Source: Syntrophus sp. PtaU1.Bin005
GTDB taxonomy: Bacteria; Desulfobacterota; Syntrophia; Syntrophales; Syntrophaceae
Reading direction: 5' to 3'
Assembly (NCBI GenBank): GCA_002067745.1
Contig: MVRU01000010.1
Span: 1 to 54,368, forward strand
DNA: 54,368 nucleotides
How positions within the stretch are numbered: position 1 is the first letter of the stretch; each line of letters starts with the position of its first letter. The position numbers and the translations under genes are program-made. Positions 336 through 851 of the stretch are shown piece by piece. The notes beneath the pieces were generated by a model, which worked only from the letters and a program-made list of their open reading frames with translations, did not search any database and was not told where the DNA came from.

Positions 336-851
336 ATGACGGATGGAAAAGAAATAAAGCCTTCATGTGAATACTTCCTCTATCCGGGTTACATTTTTTT
401 AAGCCCTGAGCCCTACCTGATATCGACGGTTGTCGGCTCCTCGGTTGCTGTAGCCCTCTGGGACACTGAAAGCCGGCAGGGGGGGATGTCAAATTTCCTG
501 TATCCCTTCGTTGAAGGTTCAGAACATGGGACGGCCCTTTATGGCAATGTGGCCATCCCCTATATGATCAGGATGTTCCTTGAAGAAGGGGCCAGTGAAA
601 AGAACCTGCGATCGCAGATTTTTGGAGGCGCCCAGGCAGAGGAGCTCGATGCGGAAGAGATTGCTCACAGAAACATAGAGATAGCGAGGCGTGTGCTGAG
701 GCATCACGGGATCAAAGTGATATCCGAGGATGTCGGAGGTCGATTGGGCCGTAAGATCGTTTACAATACCGCTCAAAATGAAGCCCTGATTTACAAGGTC
801 GGTACACTTCGAAGCAGTGACTGGTATCCCTATGATCGTCAAGGCAGGTAG
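336..851 (+). CDS. cheD: CheD-like chemotaxis protein, catalytic residues missing
   Basis: CheD-family protein of 171 residues. Known members deamidate receptor glutamines and bind CheC. The fold is recognisable from start to end: the V-G-S-S-V-A-V strand, the G-G-M-S-N-F-L-Y-P strand, the F-G-G-A segment, the N-I-E-I-A helix and a late E-D-V-G-G-R motif. The catalytic Cys is Ser36 here (TCG at 441-443) and the catalytic His is Asn53 (AAT at 492-494), judged against the family S-C-V and A-H-x-M-L-P motifs. Deamidase activity is therefore unlikely. I chose the ATG at 336, 8 bases after a GGGGGAAAG-type ribosome site. A longer frame from 264 would overlap the upstream gene by 53 bases. It is 2 bases from cheB and probably acts as a binding or regulatory partner. 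Confidence 0.85.

Follow-up and report, generated by a model that had tools for sequence, protein, structure and literature searches.

The cheD2 gene near the left end of the window (by which we mean the whole 54,368-nucleotide stretch analysed here) encodes a protein that is a CheD by descent and, judged from its residues, not a deamidase: the CheD fold is kept, and serine and asparagine stand where Thermotoga maritima CheD has its nucleophilic cysteine and catalytic histidine. “CheD2” is the name given here to a subfamily of second-copy CheDs to which this protein belongs. The annotation “glutamine deamidase CheD” is unsafe for its members, as the nucleophile is absent in 59 of the 106 CheD2s examined, a proportion that comes from a best-similarity sample and is not a phylum frequency. 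On balance, we favor the view that CheD2 here is a retained pseudoenzyme that leaves catalysis to the first CheD of the operon (CheD1) and keeps a non-catalytic role, likely receptor binding. The features of the locus are collected in Table 1.

Table 1. Features of the cheD2 locus, in window coordinates
Feature	Position	Strand	Basis
cheXu, CheX-type phosphatase gene, truncated at the 5' end by the contig edge	2..316	+	Pfam CheX 31.6 bits; full-length orthologs at L048 and L049
cheD2, predicted CheD-fold pseudoenzyme, 171 aa	336..851	+	Pfam CheD; AF2 model; 2f9z_C match; orthologs
Codon TCG, Ser36, at the nucleophilic Cys27 position of T. maritima CheD	441..443	+	Gapless 2f9z_C alignment; multiple alignment
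Codon AAT, Asn53, at the catalytic His44 position	492..494	+	Gapless 2f9z_C alignment; multiple alignment
DWYPY (residues 162-166), C-terminal CheD2 signature	819..833	+	DW[YFH]PY pattern
cheB, methylesterase with receiver domain	854..1885	+	Pfam CheB_methylest 228.9 bits, Response_reg 68.1 bits
cheA-like histidine kinase gene	1888..4107	+	ORF; named by sequence and orthologous position in L048-L056
cheY-like receiver gene	4191..4574	+	ORF; orthologous position
cheXd, second CheX gene	4652..5122	+	Pfam CheX 97.3 bits

The open reading frame is uninterrupted over 171 codons of protein, and its product scores 77.9 bits against Pfam CheD (PF03975; cut-off 25), which places it in the family by descent. 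The AF2 model of the product, made with 57 aligned sequences as input, has a pLDDT of 92.7 and a pTM of 0.88; its top match in the PDB is T. maritima CheD (2f9z_C; Foldseek E 1.5e-13, TM 0.80 by query), on which it superposes over 148 residues (Z 22.2, rmsd 2.1, 28% identity) in the alpha-beta-beta sandwich fold of CheD. The second structural match, NTAN1, is far below (Z 12.6), and the Foldseek matches ranked under NTAN1, YfiH and CNF-type folds were uninformative. A phmmer search of PDB chains returned 2f9z_C as the sole relative (E 4.4e-16), with a gapless alignment (query 26-156, chain 19-149) that runs through the active site. Ser36 aligns with the Cys of GLGSCVAV and Asn53 with the His of GAMAHVM in 2f9z_C, whose chain numbering exceeds the published Cys27/His44 by two, an offset that we take to be a two-residue tag. 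The CheD triad is given as Cys27/His44/Thr21 in a legend of PMC7022378; the residue at the Thr21 position is Thr31 by multiple alignment and Ser30 by pairwise alignment. Compared with T. maritima CheD, the protein has the same fold, Ser/Asn in place of Cys/His, an extra DWYPY tail, and no hydrophobic CheC-contact pair. It also scores at best 99 bits against the NCBIfam CheD equivalogs (cut-off 223), a failure that is not discriminating because a CheD2 (L185) and a CheD1 (L049) that retain both Cys and His (C/H) fall below their cut-offs too.

The sequence-only reading had placed Ser and Asn at the two catalytic positions of an otherwise preserved fold with an intact frame, and the alignments and the model bear this out on both counts. 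It had also argued that a single sequencing error could not suffice, since reversion would require two codon changes; the first part holds, whereas the codon argument understates the distance, as no fewer than three base substitutions would turn TCG and AAT into Cys and His codons. We rejected sequencing error as the cause, judging it very unlikely because two other CheD2s of the genus are Ser/Asn and Ser/Ser. The sole Cys of the protein, Cys11 (codon 366-368), is shared, in the same position, with the other two CheD2s of the genus and is a possible displaced nucleophile.

A profile of 14 second-copy CheDs delimits the subfamily: 17 of 155 genomes of the order score at least 234 bits and all others at most 104, and the cheD2 product of the window, at 275.4 bits, has an ortholog in 16 other genomes of the order. 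A class-level search took in 155 genomes, as many as the order search, and gave the same matches; the phylum search sampled 395 genomes of a larger group and retrieved the best 30 loci, and a further 80 named loci were the top 80 of 237 when ranked by similarity to the cheD2 product. We count as CheD2 the 106 distinct sequences that score at least 186 bits, other CheDs reaching at most 150 bits; matches under 186 bits, including L115 with its internal stop, were excluded. Long CheD2 frames (L111, which is the same sequence in L202, and L189) were considered as fusions and rejected, as they look like stop-free GC-rich extensions. A pattern scan of genome contigs with the single sequence gave 92 pattern matches, none of which was a relative, and all matches in a plasmid search were below 60% identity. 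The C-terminal DW[YFH]PY is found in 95 of the 106 CheD2s and in none of the 103 other CheDs, in which the looser W.P[YF] was sought. Among the 59 Cys-less CheD2s the pattern is present in 58 (the exception is L124), and the D, P, Y and W of the tail stand at 1.00, the Trp being at 0.86 in the C/H copies.

The sequence-only reading had suggested that relatives be surveyed for the same loss, and the survey found loss of Cys and/or His to be recurrent in CheD2. His is missing in 21 of the 106; both residues are present in 42 (CH), and the remaining Cys/His states are SH (33), AH (6), GS (5), GH (4), CN (3), GN, CQ, GY and SN (2 each), and SS, GC, NN, SR and GL (1 each). The substitutes at the Cys column of the Cys-less copies are Ser (37), Gly (15), Ala (6) and Asn (1). 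The 103 other CheDs of the same loci comprise 89 with C/H, 12 without Cys (Thr 5, Ser 5, Gly 2), and 2 truncated ones in which the catalytic columns are empty. A maximum-likelihood tree was computed without both columns; it contains long branches, and many of its forks are weak, with 48 of the 103 inner branches starred as well supported. On it, Cys presence requires 20 changes (bootstrap 19-21) and His presence 11, with at least 9 of each forced by starred branches; a quicker tree gives 19 and 11, and such counts do not separate loss from regain. We infer that the direction of change is loss, judging by the other CheDs, which are mostly C/H; some Cys-to-Ser states may have reversed, for example at L039 (C/H), which groups with L038 and L086 (both S/H). 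The two losses, of Cys and of His, show a weak association (Fisher p 0.049, uncorrected for kinship). Since 42 copies keep both residues, many lineages probably still profit from catalysis by CheD2.

Outside the catalytic columns, the Cys-less copies are about as constrained as the others. Mean column entropy over 160 columns is 1.52 in the 42 C/H CheD2s and 1.57 in the 59 Cys-less ones, and entropy at the Cys and His columns rises from 0 in the former to 1.66 and 1.51 in the latter. In comparisons inside the genus, cheD2 has a dN/dS of 0.065-0.153 and cheD1 one of 0.054-0.080 (two finite pairs), and cheD2 evolves somewhat faster; these values are rough because dS is near saturation (pS reaches 0.72 for cheD2). 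Comparison of the coding sequences indicates that CheD2 is under purifying selection in the genus and the protein maintained, and on the dN/dS range together with the entropy like that of C/H copies we rejected a recent pseudogene. The dN/dS of cheXu (compared with L048 and L049) is 0.11-0.25, similar to or above that of cheD2, and that of cheXd is 0.02-0.05.

In close relatives the operon reads cheR - cheD1 - HDOD - cheY - cheXu - cheD2 - cheB - cheA - cheY - cheXd, and in most of them motB and motA are convergent to it. CheD1 lies 2.1-2.5 kb upstream of CheD2 in the same operon at L048-L057, with Cys and His intact in 10/10. It belongs to the same family as CheD2; however, it lacks the DWYPY tail, and its nearest NCBIfam model is CheD_Thtga, as against PRK13487 for CheD2. 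Thirty-six of 60 genomes in a sample of the order carry CheD (source genome G000 included), many with two copies about 2.2 kb apart on the same strand, and a C/H CheD is present in 35 of these 36; the exception is the source genome, where there is a single CheD match and a search for CheD1 elsewhere in the genome found none. Twelve of the 14 CheD2 genomes in that sample have a second CheD; G000 and G041 do not, and in both of them CheD2 sits at a contig's left end. Another set of 36 genomes, which shares G000 and G003 with the sample, contains 35 with at least two CheDs, G000 being the one with a single copy. An operon-type cheR was likewise not found in the source genome; it scores 198-206 bits in three genus relatives. 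Contig C10 of the source genome begins at base 1 inside cheXu, and the DNA flanking the operon upstream in a relative matches source contig C82 up to base 10557 of 10561. Because the missing segment is bounded by contig ends on both sides, the simplest reading is that cheD1 of the source genome fell into a gap of a few kb in the assembly; for the same reason we rejected a genome truly devoid of any deamidase. Comparison with the three genus relatives is what points to CheD1 in the source genome, where it probably supplies deamidation.

In the reading that we favor, the protein is the second CheD encoded in a flagellar chemotaxis operon and, with both residues absent from a preserved fold, cannot carry out Cys/His-dependent deamidation, an activity that very probably comes from a CheD1 with Cys and His, hidden by the contig gap in this assembly. 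With deamidation provided for in this way, lineages of CheD2 have repeatedly lost Cys and/or His while the rest stayed under selection; the repeated loss, together with conservation of the rest, implies that CheD2 does something that does not require chemistry, and this function would need the CheD surface and the protein's own C-terminal DWYPY tail. By analogy with Bacillus subtilis, the most likely role of CheD2 would be to dock onto chemoreceptors and tune CheA output and adaptation, either as a partner of CheD1 without catalysis of its own or as its competitor. A non-catalytic CheD is plausible in view of binding data from two organisms: for B. subtilis CheD, PMC3513319 describes CheC/receptor binding as the major function and deamidation as the minor one, and for Halobacterium, PMC3579733 describes CheD as an interaction hub with CheC, CheB and CheF. 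B. subtilis CheD is thus likewise a CheD whose binding outweighs its enzyme activity in importance; however, it is an active deamidase with a CheC partner, whereas here the enzyme residues are gone and a search of the source genome found no separate CheC (the only match to the CheC model, at 22.2 bits, is the window's own CheX). We therefore favor receptor binding as the role of CheD2 with modest confidence.

The sequence-only reading had proposed that CheD keeps only a binding role, with CheC/CheX phosphatases as its partners, and had placed the gene between two CheX-type genes. The general part agrees with our data: a non-catalytic role under selection is the simplest reading, and the Cys/His mechanism is unusable. 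Neither the catalytic CheD1 that lies upstream as a rule nor the recurrence of the loss was visible from the sequence alone. The neighborhood is half as described, as cheXu adjoins cheD2 and cheXd lies beyond cheB, cheA and cheY, and CheC/CheX binding as the role fares poorly. In its specific form, CheD2 would regulate the neighboring CheX by binding CheXu and stimulating or localizing CheY-P hydrolysis, as CheD does with CheC. CheXu contains EATN, which we take to be the ExxN motif of CheX phosphatases. The gene lies immediately 5' of cheD2 here and in 10/10 Syntrophales operon loci (L048-L057), and among the genes compared in the genus cheXu and cheD2 evolve fastest, as a co-evolving pair might. 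Yet cheXu is also kept in 12/12 Syntrophales operon loci that lack CheD2 (L060-L071), on which ground we rejected CheX as an obligate partner. The hydrophobic pair M101/F102, through which B. subtilis CheD contacts CheC (PMC3513319), is hydrophobic in most other CheDs and polar in most CheD2s (NP 34 and NS 9 of 106); the protein here has GGA followed by QAEE. CheX was not seen near many other CheD2 loci, where gene calls come from small home-made profiles and absence is weak evidence, and the partners named in the available portions of PMC3513319 and PMC3579733 are CheC, receptors, CheB and CheF, with CheX not among them. We regard regulation of CheX as unlikely, although it is the alternative we would keep most in view.

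The C-terminal pentapeptide of chemoreceptors (aromatic-x-x-aromatic) tethers CheR and CheB. A docking adaptor, in which the DWYPY tail, which fits this pattern, recruits CheR/CheB while the CheD body holds the receptor, would agree with the near-invariance of the tail, with a Trp that is fully conserved among the Cys-less copies and with its presence in almost every one of them; moreover, two receptors of the genus (L240, L241) carry EFKDF and GFKDF at their C-termini, and a CheR/CheB that reads such pentapeptides may therefore be present in it. However, the model places the tail only a few residues past the last strand, with no long linker, and most C/H CheD2s have it too, which makes it a feature of the subfamily and not of dead copies; we find this reading doubtful. 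Residual chemistry through other residues, with Ser as nucleophile or the lone Cys11 serving deamidation or demethylation, appears very unlikely: Ser does occupy the Cys column in most Cys-less copies, His being mostly kept (the 33 S/H copies), and Cys11 recurs in the three Syntrophus-clade copies, but the protein here lacks the His as well, and 22 of the 59 carry Gly, Ala or Asn, none of which is such a nucleophile. Least probable of all, to a degree that we barely entertain it, is a gene decaying on its way to loss; the restriction of CheD2 to 17/155 genomes of the order and the operons of G034 and G054 without it (CheD2 lies elsewhere in those genomes) would suit decay, whereas the intact frame, the low dN/dS, and an entropy equal to that of C/H copies over 59 Cys-less sequences speak against it. 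A retained pseudoenzyme that binds receptors is the reading we prefer. A bolder extension, which we hold to be a long shot, is that CheD2 could be a widespread catalysis-free signaling subunit with many independent origins from the deamidase, its body reading the receptor state and its DWYPY tail recruiting CheR/CheB or a motor partner.

CheD is known both for deamidating receptors and for binding signaling partners, and work on B. subtilis argues that the latter matters more. CheD2 offers a natural separation-of-function series, in which the catalytic residues appear to have been dropped many times and the rest kept, and would allow a direct test of the non-catalytic role of CheD in syntrophs and sulfate reducers with an operon CheX. 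A search of titles and abstract openings in the open PMC literature found no description of a CheD subfamily without catalytic residues, a weak negative, as subscription papers lie largely outside that scope.

CheD2 is also sited outside che operons, for example beside ABC-transporter-type and acyl-CoA dehydrogenase genes (L145, L187). Among cultured relatives, Desulfatibacillum alkenivorans (L185) has a C/H CheD2 and Desulfamplus magnetovallimortis (L187) a Cys-less one. At L190 CheD2 follows motA, motB and a flagellin gene; this copy lacks both catalytic residues (Gly/Ser), and a 155-aa protein with no Pfam match (L190:5537-6001) separates it from the flagellin gene. Substitutions at the Cys column occur in other CheDs as well. 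In five loci CheD2 is preceded by an extra CheD that reads LGTSLGL, with Ser in place of the Cys and the His retained (L189:3951-4499, L194:3286-3735, L207:2-463, L165:3969-4463 and L181:3972-4430); CheD2 is C/H in three of these loci and a third CheD is C/H in the other two, so that all five have a C/H copy. One genus of the order has a CheD with Thr at that column (LGSTAAV, His kept; L032:5335-6177, L033:5575-6096, L035:5104-5892, L100 and L101), and each of the genomes tallied (G008, G026, G040) also has a C/H copy. Divergent non-CheD2 CheDs at L041:4804-5301 and L043:5144-5617 have Gly there (IGSGVGI/IGAGVGV) and keep the His. Finally, Pfam matches identify CheD-HDOD fusions (L260:889-2232, L261:574-1896, L263:187-1551, L265:1451-2800) and a CheD-receiver fusion (L262:1208-2233); the former, together with the HDOD gene directly after cheD1 in many operons, suggest a link between CheD and HDOD.
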